Part shown: positions 5,101-22,452 of the stretch, one piece after another | Position numbering within the stretch: position 1 is the first letter of the stretch | Layout of the letters: the number at the start of each line of letters is the position of its first letter | IMG/VR virus record: IMGVR_UViG_3300010391_002477 | Span: 1-23,857 of that record | Strand: one strand, 5' to 3' | Length of the DNA: 23,857 bases | From: a virus | Translations under genes and position numbers: made by a program | The notes under the pieces: generated by a model | Told to the model about the DNA's origin: nothing | The model's input: only the letters and a program-made list of their open reading frames with translations | The model's database searches: none

Positions 5101-5568
5101 ATGTTTACTCAAATATCCATATTGCCAAATAGTCAAAATGATAAATTTATTTTATCATTAAACATGATTATTTTTGATGTAGATAATTTAATAAGTACTA
5201 ATTTAAGTCGTATTATAAAAAAATATAATATTTCCCAAAATAAATTAGCTGCGATGATAGGAACAACTCCTGTAACAATTAATCAAATAATAAAAAACAA
5301 AAAAGGTATGGGTAAAGATATATTGGAACGTATCTGCAAAACTCTCAATATCGAGCCTGCTGAATTTTATATCCAACAATATACTCCTATCGCAAATTCA
5401 GAACTTCAAAAAAGAGCTGTTTATGAGACAAGGGAAGCAGAGGGAAAACATTTTTCCTCTGTAGCAGAAGAATCTATTGAATATATACCCTATAGAATTA
5501 AACAAATAAAAAAAGCGACATCGAAGGGCACTGATAAGGGCAAGCCTACTAGGTATAAGACTCGTTAA
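5101..5568 (+). CDS. Cro/CI-type (XRE) phage repressor
   Basis: 155 aa. Residues 34-90 are a Cro/CI helix-turn-helix domain: LSRIIKKYNISQNKLAAMIG, then TTPVTINQIIKNKKGM as the recognition region and a closing ILERICKTLNIEP helix. The rest is polar and basic, without a LexA-like Ser/Lys self-cleavage domain, so induction would not be by RecA-triggered self-cleavage as in lambda CI. ATG 5101 lacks a clear ribosome site; an ATG at 5164 is an alternative that keeps the HTH. It is the first gene of the rightward lysogeny module. Confidence 0.8.
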   Translation: MFTQISILPNSQNDKFILSLNMIIFDVDNLISTNLSRIIKKYNISQNKLAAMIGTTPVTINQIIKNKKGMGKDILERICKTLNIEPAEFYIQQYTPIANSELQKRAVYETREAEGKHFSSVAEESIEYIPYRIKQIKKATSKGTDKGKPTRYKTR

Positions 5569-5595
5569 ATAATTCTATCTACAAAGGAGAATTTA

Positions 5596-6447
5596 ATGGC
5601 ATCAATTCCTAAAAAAACAATTGAAAGATTTTTAAAAGAAGTTAGTAAATTTCAGCAAATTCTTCAAAATGCAAAAAATAGAGATATAAACGAAGCCGAT
5701 ACAGTCACTATAGTTACAGACATTCTCTGTTATATCTTTGGTTATGATAAATATTCTGAAATCACCGGTGAATTTGCTATTCGAGGAACTTATTGTGATC
5801 TTGCGGTAAAACTTGATGGTAATGTTAAATTTCTTATAGAAGTTAAAGCCATTGAACTTTCTTTAAAGTCAAATTATATTCGGCAAGCATTAGATTATGG
5901 GGCAAATTTAGGAATTCAATGGATTATCCTTACAAATGGAATTATGTGGGAAATATATCAGGTATATTTTGAAAAACCTATAAGAGCCGAAATTGTTTTT
6001 TCCTTTAATTTTCTTGAACTCAATCCCCGTAAAATTGATTGCCAGGAAAAACTATTTTTACTTTGCAAAGAAGGTTTAAAAAAAGCTGCAATTGATGAAT
6101 TTCAAGAACATAGAAAAATAGTAAATAGATTTAATATCGCAGCAATAATACTTGGAGAAACGGTATTAAATACAATTAGAAGAGAACTTAATAAAATATC
6201 TCTTCAGCGAGTTGAAATTTCTGAAATAGATAATATTCTGGAAAATGAGATATTTAAAAGAGATGTTATTGATGGAAAAGAAGCAATGAAAGCTTTAAAT
6301 TCTTTTAAAAGGGCAACCACAAAAAAACAAACTTCTCAAATAAAAAAATCTGAATTACAAGAACAACAATCACCAGAACAACAAGAACAACCACAAATTA
6401 AACCCGAAGAAGCAGATTTAGAACCATCGCAGAAGACTCCACAATAA
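5596..6447 (+). CDS. HsdR_N / PD-(D/E)XK nuclease-like protein, probable defence or exclusion gene
   Basis: 283 aa. Residues 10-130 look like the N-terminal nuclease-fold domain of type I restriction R subunits: Asp68 (YCDLAVKL), Glu82-x-Lys84 (FLIEVKAI), and a downstream Gln97 in IRQALDYGANLGIQWIILTNG, matching a PD-(D/E)XK core with a QxxxY element. There is no helicase part, so it is not a full restriction enzyme. The middle is helical; the C-terminal 40 residues are Gln/Pro/Glu-rich and probably disordered. It has an AAAGGAG site before ATG 5596 and follows the repressor, a usual place for genes expressed in lysogens. Whether it cleaves DNA or only binds is unknown. Confidence 0.7.
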   Translation: MASIPKKTIERFLKEVSKFQQILQNAKNRDINEADTVTIVTDILCYIFGYDKYSEITGEFAIRGTYCDLAVKLDGNVKFLIEVKAIELSLKSNYIRQALDYGANLGIQWIILTNGIMWEIYQVYFEKPIRAEIVFSFNFLELNPRKIDCQEKLFLLCKEGLKKAAIDEFQEHRKIVNRFNIAAIILGETVLNTIRRELNKISLQRVEISEIDNILENEIFKRDVIDGKEAMKALNSFKRATTKKQTSQIKKSELQEQQSPEQQEQPQIKPEEADLEPSQKTPQ

Positions 6448-14362: not shown

Positions 14363-14908
14363 TCAAGATGTCTCAATCAGCGTTATTTCACCACTCTCAT
14401 AAAGTTGATGGTGAATATATTTAAAACCAAATTTTTCATCTCTCAAAGCCACAATATAAGCGTTCTCAGTCCAGACAACATTTCCATCTGTAGGCTGTAC
14501 AGCATTATCCCCTGTTGTCCATACAGGCTGCGTTGTTGCGTGTGATGTCCCGGCGGTCGTACATTTATAGCTATGCCCGTTGCTTGTCGTAGGGATAGTA
14601 ATATCATTTTCTGCGTAGACGTGATTTGCTAGCCAGACAAAAGCAGGATTATAAATCTCTTCTCTGTTGCGAAAATAGAAGGCTTCGTAATTCCCTTTAC
14701 GGGATTTTAAAAAACTTATGATTTTTTGTTTATCTGTTGATTGATGTGTCCCAAATTTCAAGGTAAACATTGTAATAGGAGTAGAGCTTCTTGAAATTGA
14801 TTGCCTATTTTTCCCACCATAGCTAAGAGCTATGTTGTCGGAAAATGAAAAATCAACTCCAATGGGGAACATGGGTACGACATCTGTGGGAAAGGTCTGC
14901 ATGGTCAT
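14363..14908 (-). CDS. DUF2460-like distal tail protein with an inserted beta domain
   Basis: 181 aa. The start (FPIGVDFSFSDNIALSYGG) and the block IISFLKSRKGNYEAFYFRN followed by a C-terminal FGFKYIHHQLYESGEITL strand resemble the DUF2460/TIGR02217 family (GTA gp12, distal tail). Residues about 92-148 break this pattern with a Trp-Tyr-Thr-rich module (WLANHVY, PTTSNGHSYKCTTAGTS, QPTDGNVVWTE) of a type I know as a small virion or carbohydrate-binding domain. ATG 14908 overlaps the tape-measure stop by one base (TAATG), so translation is coupled. Confidence 0.65.
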   Translation of the reverse strand: MTMQTFPTDVVPMFPIGVDFSFSDNIALSYGGKNRQSISRSSTPITMFTLKFGTHQSTDKQKIISFLKSRKGNYEAFYFRNREEIYNPAFVWLANHVYAENDITIPTTSNGHSYKCTTAGTSHATTQPVWTTGDNAVQPTDGNVVWTENAYIVALRDEKFGFKYIHHQLYESGEITLIETS

Positions 14909-17900
14909 TAATAATTTCCCCTTCTGAGTTTTCGCCTTGCAGGGTGATTGTCTTCAAGAGAGGCCATTACACCGGAAGCTATCTGGTGATTTATTTCCGG
15001 TATGTAGTCTGCAACCGATTTTGAATCTAAGGCATGAATCGTAAAGTTTAAATTCACATCATATTTATTTTGATAAATAGATTGTTTGTTGCTGCTGAAA
15101 TTAGCAGGGTCAAAAGCTTGTGGTTTTCTATCTGAAAAATTATTCCCTCCAACAACCCCGCCGTCTTCAAAGAAAGAGATTTTCTCTTTTTTTAAAGCAT
15201 CCAGAAAAGGAATTCCTATTCTGGCTGTATCTTTTTTAGAAAATACATATTCACCCTCTTCCATTAACGCTAATAATTCTTTGCCACTATGTTTCTTACG
15301 GTTAGGGTCTCCGAGTTTAACCTCTCCGCCTTCCTCAAAAAACCCACTCATAAAATTTCCACCCATTCCACCGAGTAGTCCACCTAAAATAGTTCCAACT
15401 CCGGGGAACAGGAATGTTCCTATCAATGCACCGAGAGCCGTCCCTCCGCCTGAGAAGGCAGCTCCCTTTTCATCTCCTGCTAATAATTGCATTAAGGGGC
15501 CGATAGCTAAGCCCAAGGGACCTAACAAACTACTCATTCCGCCTGCAGCTGCAGCTCCCGCCCCTGCTTCTGCTCCGGCGGCCGGGGCAACAGTAGTCAA
15601 AAACTTATCTATCCCGATTGGCTGCCCTATAGTTGATAAAGAAACACTCCCAGGCCCGACTGTGGAAGTAGGATTTGTCATTGAGAGAAACTGGCTGATA
15701 TCAAAGCCTCCTGAAGGCGCCTGAGCTGCCGGCTGTACCCATTCTGAAGGGATCCCTGGGAAACCTGCTCCGCCTGAAGGCGTTTGGCTTGCTGGAGTTT
15801 CAGGACTCCCGAATATTTTAGATAAGATATCCTGACTTCCGGCTGGCATTGAGGGACCTGTTGCTGTCGCGCCAGTTGGAGATGTCCCTGCAGAACCGAG
15901 ATTAGGCGTCCCTGCCGAACCCGTCTTTGCAATATTAAGGTCTTTATATGCCTGTATGAGCTGGTTTACGACTATAGCTTCCTTACTGAATTCTCCTTGT
16001 ACTGCCTCGCTTGTACTAACTAAATCTTTGTTAGCATCATTGACATTTTCTTTCTCTGGAAATAAACCTGAGAACCATTCAGAGATAGGCTTCATCGTTG
16101 CCTTTGAAAGCCAACTTGTGAATTGATTAAGGATTGTCTCGCCTAAATGTTTACCATAATTAAAACCAGCATTCTTAGGGTCTTTGATTAAATCTTGAAA
16201 GAAATTATTCGTTGCATCTTGCATATCATTTAGAGCCCCTGACCATGCGCTTTTAGACCAATCTACTGCATTGCCAAGATTTTTCTTGTATTCTTCAATC
16301 CCTTTAGTAGCTCCCTCTAAGAATGCTGCCCCACCGGTAAGCTCCGCAAGGCGTTTTTGTTCTTCAACCTGAGCTTTCTTTGCCTCTAAAATCTTATTTT
16401 CAATATCTGCCTGGACTGAGAGAATTTCTTTGCCGTCAAAAAGGGTGGTATTTTTCTTAATATTGTTTTCAATTTCAATATCAATAGCCTCAATCTGCTT
16501 GTCATAAGCCTCTGAGATTTTTCCCTGCAATTGCAGGGCTTCTGCCTGGAATTCAAGATAGGTTTTCCATGCCTCATTAGCATCAATAATGCCTTTTTTT
16601 ATTCCCTCAGGCTCTTTTTTGCCTATCTCTTTTGAGGCTTCATTCTGTTTGTAAAGTAGATCAAGAGTTTCATTTACCTTCTTTTCGCCTTCGTCAGCAA
16701 GTTTTAAGGTTTCTTCTGTAACTTTTTTTGATAACTCTAACTGCTTATTTGCTGCATTAAGGTCAATCACAAGATAGCTATCTTTTATTTTTTTATATTT
16801 TTCTAAATCAGCAAGTCTCTCAAGATTGATTTTTGTCAGGGCATCCTGGTTCATTAACACAGTTGCTTGGTAGTATTTAGCCCAGTCAGAAAGGAGTTCT
16901 TTTGGAATAGCAACTGCAGATATCGTACTTCCTGTTGCCAGATTATCAAGTGTAGTTGTTGGTTTTTCTGCCCTGCCACTTTTAGTTTGTGCAATTTTAT
17001 TTCTTAATTCAAGCATCCTTCTTTGCTGATCTGCAGCTGTAGTCAGCAATCTATCATTTGCTTCTTTTGCACCTTCAGCTAATTGAGTGTAGTAGCGGAA
17101 ATCTTCCTCTGCTTGTTTTGCTATGGCTGGATTTTTGGTTAATGGCTTTGCCAACATGGCTTGAAATTTTGCATACCACTCAACTGCAGTCATTATATTT
17201 GCAGTTAAAAAATTAAAAGTAGCTCCGACTCCTTCAAAGCCAGCTACCAGCAAAGAAGCAACATCATTTTCTTTTATAAAATTAAAAAATTGGATAAAAA
17301 CAGGAAGTAGCTCTCTCCCAATAGTTTCTTTTAAATTATCCATTATCGCTTTATACATCTGGAATGTCTCGGCAGATGATAAAGTTTCAAGATTTATAGA
17401 TTTCATCTTATCTTTCATTTCATCATAGACAACTCCGAGTAAAGCTAATCGTTTTTCTGCTATTTGTGCTTTACTTCCAGTTTCTTCAATACCATCTCCA
17501 AATTGCTCCTGAGCTTTTTTTGAATCAATTATTATTCCAATATCTTTTAACATTATTGGCTGGATAGCACCTATTCCCGTAGCCAAAGAATTAAAAGCCT
17601 CTGCTAAATCCATCCCCATTCTACGACCCTGAACCCTTGCAATAACCATAAGATTTGCGATGTGTTCAATAGGTATACCTAAAGCAATAGCTCTTGATGA
17701 GAGTTTATAAATATCTCCTTCATCAAGGATTCCTGCGGTAGCTTTTTTAATTTTGGAAAATTCTTCCTCTGCATTTTTCCCCATGTCCTTCATTGCAAGA
17801 TTGAAGGATTCCTGTGCCTGGTCAATTTTTGCAGCGAATTCAGCAAAAGCAAACCCCTTTTGTATGGCAAAATAGACAGCATAGATTTTCGCTGTGAGTA

Positions 17901-18081
17901 ATAGCCATTGTGCTTTAATCCCGCCAATAGCCTGTTGGGTTATGCTTTCAGCTTCCTTAGTGGCAGTAGCAACAGCACCAACACCGGTTTTGACCCCACC
18001 GAGTTGGCTCTTTAATTCATTAAGAACAGCATCGCCCTTCTTAATGACTTCGAGGATTATCTGTAGTTTCTGGTCGTTCAT
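14908..18081 (-). CDS. Tail tape measure protein
   Basis: 1057 aa, setting tail length and filling the tail tube. The N-terminal half is long coiled-coil helix, the middle is more coiled coil (about 390-600), and about 690-815 is a Pro/Gly/Ser/Thr-rich linker. Residues 860-915 are hydrophobic Gly-rich segments (GALIGTFLFPGVGTILGGLL) that could insert in the membrane during DNA entry. The end has the EEGGEV ... LMEEGEYVFSKKDTARIG ... EDGGVVGG block typical of tape measures. No lytic or peptidase domain is seen. If the usual ~1.5 Å per residue applies, the tail would be about 160 nm; this is a rough rule. It lies directly after the chaperone genes and the 68-aa gene. Confidence 0.88.
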   Translation of the reverse strand: MNDQKLQIILEVIKKGDAVLNELKSQLGGVKTGVGAVATATKEAESITQQAIGGIKAQWLLLTAKIYAVYFAIQKGFAFAEFAAKIDQAQESFNLAMKDMGKNAEEEFSKIKKATAGILDEGDIYKLSSRAIALGIPIEHIANLMVIARVQGRRMGMDLAEAFNSLATGIGAIQPIMLKDIGIIIDSKKAQEQFGDGIEETGSKAQIAEKRLALLGVVYDEMKDKMKSINLETLSSAETFQMYKAIMDNLKETIGRELLPVFIQFFNFIKENDVASLLVAGFEGVGATFNFLTANIMTAVEWYAKFQAMLAKPLTKNPAIAKQAEEDFRYYTQLAEGAKEANDRLLTTAADQQRRMLELRNKIAQTKSGRAEKPTTTLDNLATGSTISAVAIPKELLSDWAKYYQATVLMNQDALTKINLERLADLEKYKKIKDSYLVIDLNAANKQLELSKKVTEETLKLADEGEKKVNETLDLLYKQNEASKEIGKKEPEGIKKGIIDANEAWKTYLEFQAEALQLQGKISEAYDKQIEAIDIEIENNIKKNTTLFDGKEILSVQADIENKILEAKKAQVEEQKRLAELTGGAAFLEGATKGIEEYKKNLGNAVDWSKSAWSGALNDMQDATNNFFQDLIKDPKNAGFNYGKHLGETILNQFTSWLSKATMKPISEWFSGLFPEKENVNDANKDLVSTSEAVQGEFSKEAIVVNQLIQAYKDLNIAKTGSAGTPNLGSAGTSPTGATATGPSMPAGSQDILSKIFGSPETPASQTPSGGAGFPGIPSEWVQPAAQAPSGGFDISQFLSMTNPTSTVGPGSVSLSTIGQPIGIDKFLTTVAPAAGAEAGAGAAAAGGMSSLLGPLGLAIGPLMQLLAGDEKGAAFSGGGTALGALIGTFLFPGVGTILGGLLGGMGGNFMSGFFEEGGEVKLGDPNRKKHSGKELLALMEEGEYVFSKKDTARIGIPFLDALKKEKISFFEDGGVVGGNNFSDRKPQAFDPANFSSNKQSIYQNKYDVNLNFTIHALDSKSVADYIPEINHQIASGVMASLEDNHPARRKLRRGNY

Positions 18082-18143: not shown

Positions 18144-18350
18144 TTAGGGTAAGTCCTCTATATGTAAGCAATCCTTTAAATTAACATATTCTTTATTTCT
18201 GTCTATAATTATGCTTGGGACTACATTCCCGTTACAAGTATCAGATTGTGGGTTTATAGATATAAGAACTCCGCCAATTGGTTTTTCCGAGCAGTTTTTA
18301 CCGACTATCTCATCACCTATCTTTGCTTCTCTTCCGTTTTTATAGTGCAT
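18144..18350 (-). CDS. Small beta-barrel-like protein, 68 aa
   Basis: Starts MHYKNGREAKIGDEIVGKN, a pattern of small SH3/KOW-like barrels seen in phage proteins of this length, with Cys-containing loops. AGGAGATATCAA gives a good ribosome site before ATG 18350. It sits between the frameshift chaperone and the tape measure, a place where few extra genes are found; role unknown. The gap 18082-18143 holds AGCTATCAGC / GCTGATAGCT-type short repeats and no gene. Confidence 0.6.
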   Translation of the reverse strand: MHYKNGREAKIGDEIVGKNCSEKPIGGVLISINPQSDTCNGNVVPSIIIDRNKEYVNLKDCLHIEDLP

Positions 18351-18378: not shown

Positions 18379-18747
18379 TTATTCTTTTAATTCACAGTTA
18401 GAGCAAGTCCATTCAAAATACCTGCCATGTTCTAACCTGCACTGTGCTTTTTTCTTATCATCACAGATTTGCTTTATTTCTTCTTTGATTCCAAAAATCC
18501 AATTTCTTATGACTACTTCCCTGAAGAGAACTTCCCGGTTTTTAAACTTTATATAGGGCTCACATTCTTTTGGAGTAAACCCCCAGAGAACTTCATCACG
18601 TTTTAAAATATCCCCGCCTGACAGAAGCAGGACTTGATTATTTATTGATTCAATCCAATCGGATTTTCTTTCTGGTCTTTTTTCAAGAATGTCTTTTGAA
18701 ACGCTCCTGTCAACTTCTCTATAAGTGAAGCTGTCGGGGTTATATCC
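18379..18747 (-). CDS. Frameshift extension of the tail assembly chaperone (GT-type)
   Basis: Reading in the -1 frame from the U_UUU_UUG site gives 122 codons: GYNPDSFTYREVDRSVSKDI, then an ILEKRPERKSDW region, LSGGDILKRDEVLWGFTPKE, a helical part and a Cys pair near the end (WTCSNCELKE). It has no ATG, GTG or TTG start with a ribosome site near its beginning, so it is most probably made only as a fusion to the upstream chaperone after slippage, like lambda G-T. The fusion would be about 221 aa. TTG and GTG codons inside are out of place for a separate gene. It ends just before the 68-aa gene. Confidence 0.75.
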   Translation of the reverse strand, partial: GYNPDSFTYREVDRSVSKDILEKRPERKSDWIESINNQVLLLSGGDILKRDEVLWGFTPKECEPYIKFKNREVLFREVVIRNWIFGIKEEIKQICDDKKKAQCRLEHGRYFEWTCSNCELKE

Positions 18748-19043
18748 AAAAAATCCTCTATTATCTCCGGTATCTGCTCAGATGTAACAGCAAAGTCTAA
18801 CTCCTTTGCAAGAGCATCAACATCTTTATCTTTTGGATGTTTGCCTTCCTCTGTAAGTAATACCGCAATAGCTTTATGGATATCATTCCCTAAAGCTATT
18901 ATCAGTCCAACAGTATCAAAGGTAGAAATTTTTATATCCTTGATGATACCAATTAACTGCCTCCATTGCCCTAAGAGCAAAGGCTTCTGGACATAGACTT
19001 TGTTGTCTATTGTATATTTCTTTTCCATTACCTTATCAGTCAA
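18642..19043 (-). CDS. Tail assembly chaperone, short form (G-type)
   Basis: About 133 aa from TTG 19043, chosen because AAGGAGGGG ends some 4 nt before it; an in-frame ATG lies 15 nt downstream at 19028, and one further upstream (19067) falls inside the palindrome. The protein is helical and acidic (YTIDNKVYVQKPLLLGQWRQ; QIPEIIEDFLDITPTASLIE), as are G-type chaperones that keep the tape measure soluble. Its place between tail tube and tape measure fits. The slippery site lies at codon 99, so ribosomes that slip make the longer GT-type product. Confidence 0.7.
   Translation of the reverse strand: MTDKVMEKKYTIDNKVYVQKPLLLGQWRQLIGIIKDIKISTFDTVGLIIALGNDIHKAIAVLLTEEGKHPKDKDVDALAKELDFAVTSEQIPEIIEDFLDITPTASLIEKLTGAFQKTFLKKDQKENPIGLNQ
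18747..18753 (-). promoter_or_regulatory. -1 ribosomal frameshift site T_TTT_TTG
   Basis: In the chaperone frame the codons are GAT TTT TTG, giving the canonical X_XXY_YYZ heptamer with X, Y = T. The -1 frame is open from the site for 122 codons, while the zero frame ends at 18642. A weak hairpin AGCTTC/GAAGTT begins about 14 nt downstream and may or may not help. Confidence 0.75.
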
Positions 19044-19159: not shown

Positions 19160-20446
19160 TTACGCTGGTATCTGTCCGTAAGCTGCTACTTCATTGGCTA
19201 CTGTCCAGATAGATGTTGCATAAGTCCCGCCATCCATGACCTCAGCCTCAACCGTCTCTACATTTCGTTTGTCATTATTGGCCAAGCTGACCTTTGTGAT
19301 ATTACAGTCAGGACAAATGCCTTCAACGTAGAAGTTCTTGCCGGTCTCAAACTCCGCACCGGTTGCCTTCATACTTATCGCGAAATGAGCGTTGTCTTCC
19401 ATTAACTGCCTCATAGAGAAGTCCCTTGACTCTCTTACAATTTTTACTGTCTGGTGCCTCTGTCTCCTCCATGCATAGCTTGCGTATAATCCAGTCCCAC
19501 CCGGACGATATTCAACGACAAGATCATTGGTCAAGGCGTACTCAACTGAATCACACTCGATGGAAATATCATGTCCGCCGAGGTAGGCAGATCCATTCCA
19601 TTTCCCGCCGACTTTTACAACAAGGTCGGTTGTCCTCATTGGTGATTCCTCAACTGGTGAAGGGAATGTCATCCAGCCAGCTTCAACAGGGAGATAGATT
19701 ATTTCGTAGGTTGTTGACGTGGCAGCTACACCCGGAGCTACTATTGTAATAGCTGCAGGAACGGCATTGCTGACAGCCGTATAGACGACATCTGCATACT
19801 CTCCTGTCGTAGGAGTGAGAACCCTTATCCTCTGGACATTATCCAATCTTTTTGCTGCATTATCTCCGGCATCCTGTACTCCATTTGCAGCAAGGGTTAA
19901 TGTCGTGGCATTAAAGGCAGCAGTTACAGTTTCTTTTACAACGCTATTGGTGTGCTTGCCTGTGCCCTTTATTCCCAGATTAAGCTTTAGCCATTCATCT
20001 TTTGCAAAGGTCGCTGTAAGGGTGTCAACAAACAACCCGTCCAACTTCATTTTGTTTATTGTATCGCCTTCTCTCATTCCCGCAGAGAAGGAAGGCATTG
20101 CATTGCCAAGTTCCGGGACTATTACGTGTTTAAACCCACCACCCCATGCAGATCCAGCAGCAGGATTGCCAAGACCATAGGCAAGCCCAAAGGCGAAGTG
20201 TTGAGGCATCCCCTTGCCAAAAGGCATTGCAAAGTTAGACAGGAAGCCCATATCATAAGACTTGTCCGCTTCCTCCCTGCCTGTTAGTTCGTCAATGTTT
20301 GTTTCCCTACGTGGCTCTGCCAGAAAGATGGTACTGGCATCAACCATCATAAGAGTGTCAAGGTCAGCACCGGCATTAAGGGCGGATTCCCTCTCTGCTG
20401 CACCGACTACAATTTGATTCATTTTCGCTATAAAATTTCTTGCCAT
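19160..20446 (-). CDS. Major tail tube protein with an inserted domain
   Basis: 428 aa from ATG 20446 (MARNFIAKMNQ), preferred over an upstream ATG at 20497 because AAGGAG lies 8 nt before it. The N-terminal half (RETNIDELTGREEADKSYDMG; FGKGMPQHFAFGLAYGLG) and the C-terminal half (LGGHDISIECDSVEYALTND; AISMKATGAEFETG) follow the phage tail-tube pattern for large tube proteins. Between them, roughly residues 185-265, is a Thr/Val-rich beta segment (TTLTLAANGVQDAG, TTGEYADVVYTAV) that looks like an inserted surface domain. It stands after its own terminator and just before the chaperones, the normal order for a tube. Confidence 0.75.
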   Translation of the reverse strand: MARNFIAKMNQIVVGAAERESALNAGADLDTLMMVDASTIFLAEPRRETNIDELTGREEADKSYDMGFLSNFAMPFGKGMPQHFAFGLAYGLGNPAAGSAWGGGFKHVIVPELGNAMPSFSAGMREGDTINKMKLDGLFVDTLTATFAKDEWLKLNLGIKGTGKHTNSVVKETVTAAFNATTLTLAANGVQDAGDNAAKRLDNVQRIRVLTPTTGEYADVVYTAVSNAVPAAITIVAPGVAATSTTYEIIYLPVEAGWMTFPSPVEESPMRTTDLVVKVGGKWNGSAYLGGHDISIECDSVEYALTNDLVVEYRPGGTGLYASYAWRRQRHQTVKIVRESRDFSMRQLMEDNAHFAISMKATGAEFETGKNFYVEGICPDCNITKVSLANNDKRNVETVEAEVMDGGTYATSIWTVANEVAAYGQIPA

Positions 20447-20482
20447 AATTAAATTCTCCTTTTTAATTTTAAAATTTTTCCC

Positions 20483-20527
20483 AAAAAAAAAGCTCATTCC
20501 TGCTTGTGCACAAGAACGAGCTTTTTT
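20483..20527. terminator. Intrinsic terminator, bidirectional
   Basis: AAAAAAGCTC and GAGCTTTTTT arms with an inner CTTG/CAAG and loop TGCA, an A-tract on the left and a T-tract on the right, so it works on both strands. On the late (minus) strand it lies between the 617-aa gene and the tail tube gene. Confidence 0.8.
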
Positions 20528-20598: not shown

Positions 20599-22452
20599 TT
20601 AATTCCCCCACATTAAAGACTGTGAAACTACTCTCATCATTCCAGTAGGAGCTATTAAATCATAAACCTTTGGTCCAATATCACACTCCCCAAGAATCCC
20701 TTTTTTCTTTCCGTTAACACAAACACCCATGCCGAAAATCGGAGCTTTTGCCGTAGGGGTAAAATCATAGGTAGGATAAGTAGTGTCTTTGAAGAGCTGT
20801 GAAATACCGCTATTATTTAAAGAAGTATTGGCCAATATTGATGCCATATCCTGCGGCACTCCGATATCTCTTAAAGTCTGCGTCTGCCACCCAGCTAAAT
20901 TTCTAAGACCAGAGGGGTCATTCGTTTCACAGGTATAAGGAGATGCCGTACAATAGCTACTTCCCGGACAAGTTCTATTAACATTTTCAGGAGGATAGCA
21001 AACTCTCCAAGAAAATAACTTGGCATTAAGACCATCCTGAGTCTCAAACAGATTATAATTGGAAGAATAATTAGAATATGTCTCATTATGAAGAGCAACA
21101 AGGTTCGCTCCATAACGACTCAGGGTTTGATTAATATTAAAAATAATATTGTTCCTGATTAACATGTTAGAAACATCAGACCCACCTGTAGAAGATAACA
21201 AAACAGGAATTCCCGTCAGCGTTCCATCCTCAGTCGTTCCGTTGGCATTAACCTCATAGTCAATGGGTTTCAAAACATTGTCAGTAACTATATTCCCTTT
21301 TGAATCTACATTTATCTGTCCTGTTAAGTTATCATAGACAGTATTATTAGTTATTTTGTTTCTTATGTTTTGGTAATCCCCTGATAATTGATAACGAATA
21401 TAGATTCCATTTCCCCTGCAATTATAAATTTCATTATTATCAATAGTATTATCAGTTGCGACTGCTGAGGCTCCGCCACTAGAACCAATTTCAATACAAC
21501 TGCCACCAATGTCGTGTATTTTAGAATTTTTTATTATATGAAATGTTGATGTAGACCCGCTTCCACTTCTAAGATATATTCCTGTTCCCATAGAAGTAAA
21601 TTCTGAATTATTAAATGTAATATGGTCTGAAGCTCCAAGAACAATAGGGTCTTGCCCCACAGTATTTATATTCCCTCCACCCCTAAATTCCAGCCCATTA
21701 AAAGTGATATAGTTTTTATTACTCCCTATGACAATTAGTCTCTTATTGTTCCCCATTAAAACATTATGAACATTATCATTAGCAGGAGGATAAGATGCAG
21801 GAGTGTCCCTTGCTCCTGCATCTCCGAAACGAATATATATATATCCTGAGCTGTCCATACAGCCAGTCCCATATTCAAAATCTATTATTCCATTCGTATC
21901 ATTCCATCTATGCCCTTCTATTCCATTTAGAGAATTTTCTACGTTTGCAGCCGTGCAATCAGCAATCTGAACAGGGGTGTATAATCTCATTTTCATTCCT
22001 GTTCCCTGCCAGAAATAATACTTAGTTTTTGTTCCGCTATAAACGGAATTAGATTTCCAGACATGGGTATTAGGAGAGCCCTGCTGCGTCCAAGCAAAAC
22101 TACCTGTAATATCGCTTCTGTCAGTAATCACGGGCTTGTTATTTAAATCCTGCCCTGTGTAAAGAATAGGGGCAGTAGCTGTGCCTGTATTTGTAATAGG
22201 AGGATTTGCAGCAGTTGACTCTGGAGCTGTGCCGATTAAGTATGTTCCTGCCGCCACTGTTACTGTATCACCTGCTGTTGCAGTTGCAAGCCCTTTAGAA
22301 AAAGTAAGCCATGGGGTTGCCCAAGAAGTGCCATCGTTAGAATCATTGCCGACTGTTCCGTTTACTCCGTCTTTGTCAACATAGTAATTTGTCCCATAAG
22401 ACAGAGAGGAAATGAAAAGAAAAAGAATTATAAGAAATATTTTCTTACTCAT
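20599..22452 (-). CDS. Secreted right-handed beta-helix protein, 617 aa
   Basis: A Sec signal peptide (MSKKIFLIILFLFISSLSYG) is followed by the DUF1565-like opening YYVDKDGVNG ... NDGTSWATPWLTF ... AGDTVTVAAGTY and then many parallel-beta-helix repeats (residues ~230-440, e.g. NKNYITFNGLEFRGG, IKNSKIHDIGG, IDNNEIYNCRGNGIYI, ITNNTVYDNLTG, LIRNNIIFNIN). Beta-helix proteins bind or degrade polysaccharide, but no catalytic triad can be assigned here. Signal peptides are unusual in tail-module genes. It is directly downstream of the 246-aa secreted protein gene and ends before the terminator. It could be a lysogenic-conversion or depolymerase gene; its function is unknown. Confidence 0.75.
   Translation of the reverse strand: MSKKIFLIILFLFISSLSYGTNYYVDKDGVNGTVGNDSNDGTSWATPWLTFSKGLATATAGDTVTVAAGTYLIGTAPESTAANPPITNTGTATAPILYTGQDLNNKPVITDRSDITGSFAWTQQGSPNTHVWKSNSVYSGTKTKYYFWQGTGMKMRLYTPVQIADCTAANVENSLNGIEGHRWNDTNGIIDFEYGTGCMDSSGYIYIRFGDAGARDTPASYPPANDNVHNVLMGNNKRLIVIGSNKNYITFNGLEFRGGGNINTVGQDPIVLGASDHITFNNSEFTSMGTGIYLRSGSGSTSTFHIIKNSKIHDIGGSCIEIGSSGGASAVATDNTIDNNEIYNCRGNGIYIRYQLSGDYQNIRNKITNNTVYDNLTGQINVDSKGNIVTDNVLKPIDYEVNANGTTEDGTLTGIPVLLSSTGGSDVSNMLIRNNIIFNINQTLSRYGANLVALHNETYSNYSSNYNLFETQDGLNAKLFSWRVCYPPENVNRTCPGSSYCTASPYTCETNDPSGLRNLAGWQTQTLRDIGVPQDMASILANTSLNNSGISQLFKDTTYPTYDFTPTAKAPIFGMGVCVNGKKKGILGECDIGPKVYDLIAPTGMMRVVSQSLMWGN

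Follow-up and report, generated by a model that had tools for sequence, protein, structure and literature searches.

Tail assembly chaperones made by frameshifting have been described in several phages. In phage lambda, a low-level -1 frameshift yields two chaperones, G and GT, from one start at a locus lying between the genes for the major tail protein and the tape measure protein. G, alone or as the first half of GT, binds the tape measure protein, and the T domain has the major tail protein as its partner (PMC5009743). Phage P2 uses a frameshift on TTTTTTG in its E/E+E' chaperone genes (PMC3091744; PMC3931495). Outside phage tails, the dnaX cassette places a Shine-Dalgarno (SD)-like element about 10 nt before its homopolymeric slip site (PMC5009743; PMC3711429). 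The dnaX site is A_AAA_AAG and is combined with a 3' hairpin. One review puts U_UUU_UUA and U_UUU_UUU far below A_AAA_AAG in slipperiness in E. coli (PMC5009743).

We analysed a 23,857-nucleotide stretch of viral DNA, referred to here in its entirety as the window, in which one locus very probably yields two tail assembly chaperones from a single start, the minor one by a -1 slip on U_UUU_UUG. With P2 the locus shares TTTTTTG, the -1 direction and the place before the tape measure gene, but its extension is 122 aa long as opposed to 57 aa, and the neighbouring tail genes differ, those of P2 being contractile tail genes. Comparison by hhalign with ten P2-like E and nine E' sequences gave probabilities of 0.3% and 0.2%, so neither half has a detectable sequence relation to its P2 counterpart and homology was rejected at the profile level. 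The T6-based heptamer common to both reflects a shared mechanism and not shared sequence ancestry. Among the P2-like E genes, that of Mannheimia phage PHL101 has no in-frame T6 heptamer, unlike the other nine examined. Neither Pfam nor PHROGs gave a sequence link between lambda G/GT and the genes of the window. The dnaX cassette resembles the locus in the distance of its SD-like element from the slip site, but it belongs to a different gene with a different purpose, and the family described here has U_UUU_UUN and no convincing conserved 3' structure.

Slippery site, reading frames and neighbouring genes

The features of the locus, all on the minus strand, are as follows.

19160 to 20497, minus strand: major tail protein gene, with homologues at the equivalent position in relatives L005-L008, L012 and L017
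19048 to 19056, minus strand: ribosome-binding site of the chaperone gene, AAGGAGGGG, read in the sequence
18642 to 19043, minus strand: zero-frame, G-like tail assembly chaperone gene, 133 aa, assigned from the ORF, the structural model and the match to 2ob9
18765 to 18768, minus strand: GGAG, SD-like element and proposed frameshift stimulator, 11 nt 5' of the heptamer
18747 to 18753, minus strand: slippery heptamer T_TTT_TTG, with TTTTTT plus C, T or G at the corresponding position of all 42 loci
18379 to 18747, minus strand: -1-frame extension, 122 codons and TAA, with core GGDILKRDEVLWGFT and four conserved cysteines, from profile and alignment
18144 to 18350, minus strand: 68-codon ORF that starts with ATG behind an AGGAG-like site and separates the extension from the tape measure gene
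14908 to 18081, minus strand: tape measure protein gene, 1057 aa, with homologues at the equivalent position in L019, L008, L031 and others

The chaperone ORF starts at TTG 19043, with an alternative in-frame ATG at 19028. Relative to TTG 19043 the heptamer lies in codon phase 0, preceded by the GAT codon at 18755-18753. The zero frame runs on for 34 codons beyond the slip site, giving 133 aa in total, while the -1 frame is open from 18747 to 18382 (122 codons) and closes with TAA at 18381-18379. The closest -1-frame stop 5' of the heptamer is 24 nt away, and no ATG, GTG or TTG occurs in the -1 frame between that stop and the conserved core. The predicted fusion product is 221 aa long, and IIEDFLGYNPDSF or IIEDFFGYNPDSF would be expected as its junction peptide. 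The initial annotation had placed an in-frame GAT TTT TTG at 18753-18747, a 122-codon open -1 frame without a usable start ending at the TAA at 18379, and a fusion of about 221 aa; our reading of the ORFs agrees with it on all of these. The slippery heptamer of lambda is a different one, G_GGA_AAG.

In-frame X_XXY_YYZ heptamers are common in the window, which has 38.7% GC, with 36 in the 4345 codons of eight minus-strand ORFs, and TTTTTTG occurs 24 times against 19 expected. The bare heptamer alone is therefore weak and non-significant evidence, and the case for frameshifting rests on the relatives.

The gene directly upstream of the locus encodes a Phage_tube_2 tail tube protein in 9/11 relatives tested with Pfam. 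Directly downstream, TMP_3, Tape_meas_lam_C or PhageMin_Tail (the last just below cut-off) identified a tape measure gene in six of the 12 relatives tested, Pfam giving nothing relevant for the remaining six; the tape measure gene of the window itself has a weak Tape_meas_lam_C match. The chaperone pair had been annotated as lying just upstream of the tape measure gene. That gene is indeed downstream, but the 68-codon ORF (18350-18144), for which we found no family match, intervenes in the window, whereas in most relatives the tape measure gene directly follows the extension.

Three other regions of the window were also noted. The gene for a predicted secreted right-handed beta-helix protein (20599-22452, minus strand) lies immediately upstream of that for the major tail protein, an odd place for it. 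The gene at 14363-14908 (minus strand) encodes a DUF2460-like tail protein into which a stretch similar to the carbohydrate-binding module CBM_5_12 is inserted, and also has a PHROG head-decoration match. On the plus strand, 5101-6447 encodes an HTH protein of the Cro/C1 type and, after it, a protein with a domain like the N-terminal one of the type I restriction protein HsdR (HSDR_N_2).

Conservation of the site in relatives

A search with the extension identified a first relative, L002 (42% identity), which has GAT TTT TTG at the same place and a homologous -1 frame. Used alone as queries, neither the G-like protein nor the tape measure protein retrieved any relatives, and a two-sequence G alignment retrieved L002 only. 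The query that opened the family was a four-sequence alignment of the extension, and iterated alignment searches yielded L003-L038. We also scanned 296 genomes from the phylum of the Nitrospiraceae MAG behind L004, the one phylum whose host genomes were searched systematically, and recovered L040-L043 in addition to L004 itself. The resulting extension profile matches the window with an E value of 5.5e-35.

All 42 loci (the window and 41 relatives) have TTTTTT followed by C, T or G at the equivalent site, in the frame by which a -1 slip connects the two ORFs. At the slip site the Phe codon is TTT in 38/38 genes, compared with 42% of the other Phe codons in the same genes, and the codon before it is GAT in 36/38, compared with 52% elsewhere; these 38 genes include three near-duplicates. 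Were the genes independent, an all-TTT Phe codon would have a log10 P of about -18, a figure whose significance is overstated by that assumption. Because the extensions of the relatives are only 22-46% identical to that of the window, synonymous sites should be well mixed. Beyond the site, the zero frame stays open for another 25-78 codons in the 38 loci measured, so both frames are coding here. Judged from sequence comparison, the conservation of site and frame and the invariant TTT codon are significant, unlike the lone heptamer. The most divergent relative, L043:1091-1800, has CAT for GAT before the run and a degenerate core, and keeps the T-run site and the frame.

Upstream element and alternative readings

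In the window, the duplex of GGAG with the anti-SD has a predicted energy of -6.6 kcal/mol. Across the family the best anti-SD pairing averages -6.2 kcal/mol compared with -4.26 +/- 0.36 kcal/mol in synonymous reshuffles, none of 500 being as good, in a test that draws on few codons per gene and on relatives that are non-independent. Pairing is at or below -4 kcal/mol in 29/39 loci and weak (above -4) in 10/39. The amino acid encoded at offset -14 varies (E, Q, K, G, R, S and others), yet its codon nearly always ends in G and usually precedes GT, generating AGGT; among K, E and Q codons at this offset, 26/28 are G-ending against 18.5 expected. These results suggest that the SD-like element, some 10 nt before the heptamer, is constrained and likely acts as an upstream stimulator.

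GAGG adjoining the heptamer (offset -5/-4) was rejected as a stimulator, being explained by Glu-Asp codons and too close to act. Downstream of the site, the RNA of the window folds better than shuffled sequences (z -2.25) but with a 13-nt spacer, and family-wide the mean z is -1.2 just after the site versus -1.05 in a control stretch. Given this spacer and a control stretch that is nearly as structured, we do not claim a downstream hairpin. SD-like pairing just 5' of the T6 heptamer, at about -5 to -10 kcal/mol, is also present in several P2-like E genes (L047, L049, L053 and L056), though not in all.

The position of the SD-like element, 10 nt upstream, could also suit a ribosome-binding site, with the extension translated as a separate gene from its own internal start. 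However, the -1 frame lacks ATG, GTG and TTG from its last stop to the core in 28 of the 39 non-redundant loci, among them the window, 37/39 have no -1-frame start preceded by an SD, and no extension start codon is conserved among the 39. A separate gene would also leave the strict TTTTTT run unexplained, and we consider it very improbable. Relatives in which stops interrupt the second frame, or in which that frame has its own conserved start and ribosome site, were looked for and none was found.

It is similarly hard to credit that the frame changes during transcription, through slippage on the T run that would generate a mixed mRNA population. Poly-T can slip, though it is Tn with n above 8 that is implicated (PMC3711429), and seven or more T are present in 10/39 loci; the other 29, again including the window, have only six. 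Moreover, the phase of the heptamer is strict, and an SD-like element placed as far from the slip site as in dnaX is meaningful for ribosomes only. Homopolymer runs are also error-prone, and a sequencing or assembly error, or decay of the gene, might have split one ordinary ORF. This explanation has a negligible probability, as the same frame relation recurs in 42 loci from many independent assemblies and the zero frame continues past the site in two-frame coding. The initial annotation proposed that a gene for a tail assembly chaperone undergoes a programmed -1 frameshift. Synteny, the predicted chaperone-like fold and the conservation of heptamer and frame in 41 relatives all support this.

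Predicted proteins and proposed mechanism

We modelled the 133-aa protein with AlphaFold2 using 35 sequences (mean pLDDT 86.9). The best PDB match of the model was the HK97 tail assembly chaperone 2ob9 (Foldseek probability 0.95, E 0.043), with a modest Z of 4.9 over 84 residues at 3.9 Å and only 13-14% identity; the next match had a Z of 2.7. Several BFVD matches of the model are annotated as tail assembly chaperones. The zero-frame protein is thus predicted to have a chaperone-like fold; the score is modest, but a match to a tail assembly chaperone fits the position of the gene.

The model of the extension is helical (pLDDT 75.6) and gave no fold match. Cysteines 95, 103, 115 and 118 of the extension are present in at least 90% of members, spaced as C-x7-C...C-x2-C or C-x2-C...C-x2-C, and may form a zinc site. 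For the members tested, Pfam, PHROGs and NCBIfam contained no credible match to either the chaperone or the extension; weak PdxJ-like and AtzG-like matches were judged to be due to chance. INPHARED gave no match for four queries, nor did a sequence search of the PDB.

We propose that most ribosomes finish the 133-aa G-like protein, and that a minority, probably held by pairing of 16S rRNA with the SD-like element some 10 nt before the heptamer, shift back by one base on U_UUU_UUG and produce the 221-aa fusion as a minor product. The efficiency of this event could be low, since U_UUU_UUA and U_UUU_UUU are rated so much less slippery. The additional 122 residues of the fusion would form a domain of their own, mostly helical and with four conserved cysteines. 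If lambda is a guide, the G half common to both products would coat the tape measure protein and the extension would recruit the major tail protein, and therefore the ratio of the two products would matter for tail assembly. The initial annotation had the extension binding the tape measure protein, for which we found no support; because the lambda T domain binds the major tail protein (PMC5009743), the extension would instead be expected to contact the tube protein.

Because P2 uses the same TTTTTTG, the mechanism is a known one, heptamer included, whereas the family, as far as sequence searches can tell, is new to the catalogues searched (Pfam, PHROGs, NCBIfam and INPHARED). A likely upstream stimulator and the Cys-rich extension are its distinguishing details. 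More tentatively, and with slightly less than even confidence, we suggest that this uncatalogued chaperone family combines U_UUU_UUN with an internal SD stimulator of the dnaX kind, and that its four-Cys module, made only by frameshifting, binds metal and contacts the tail tube protein.

Annotation would otherwise overlook the 122-codon extension or take it for a spurious ORF, and its initial description as easily missed was fair, given that it matches no model in Pfam, PHROGs or NCBIfam. The family alignments can be used to annotate such phages, and the approximately 39 sites offer a natural series in which to study how a U-rich slippery site is boosted. By comparison, these results imply that the tail-chaperone frameshift reaches phages that have no match in the isolate collection searched.
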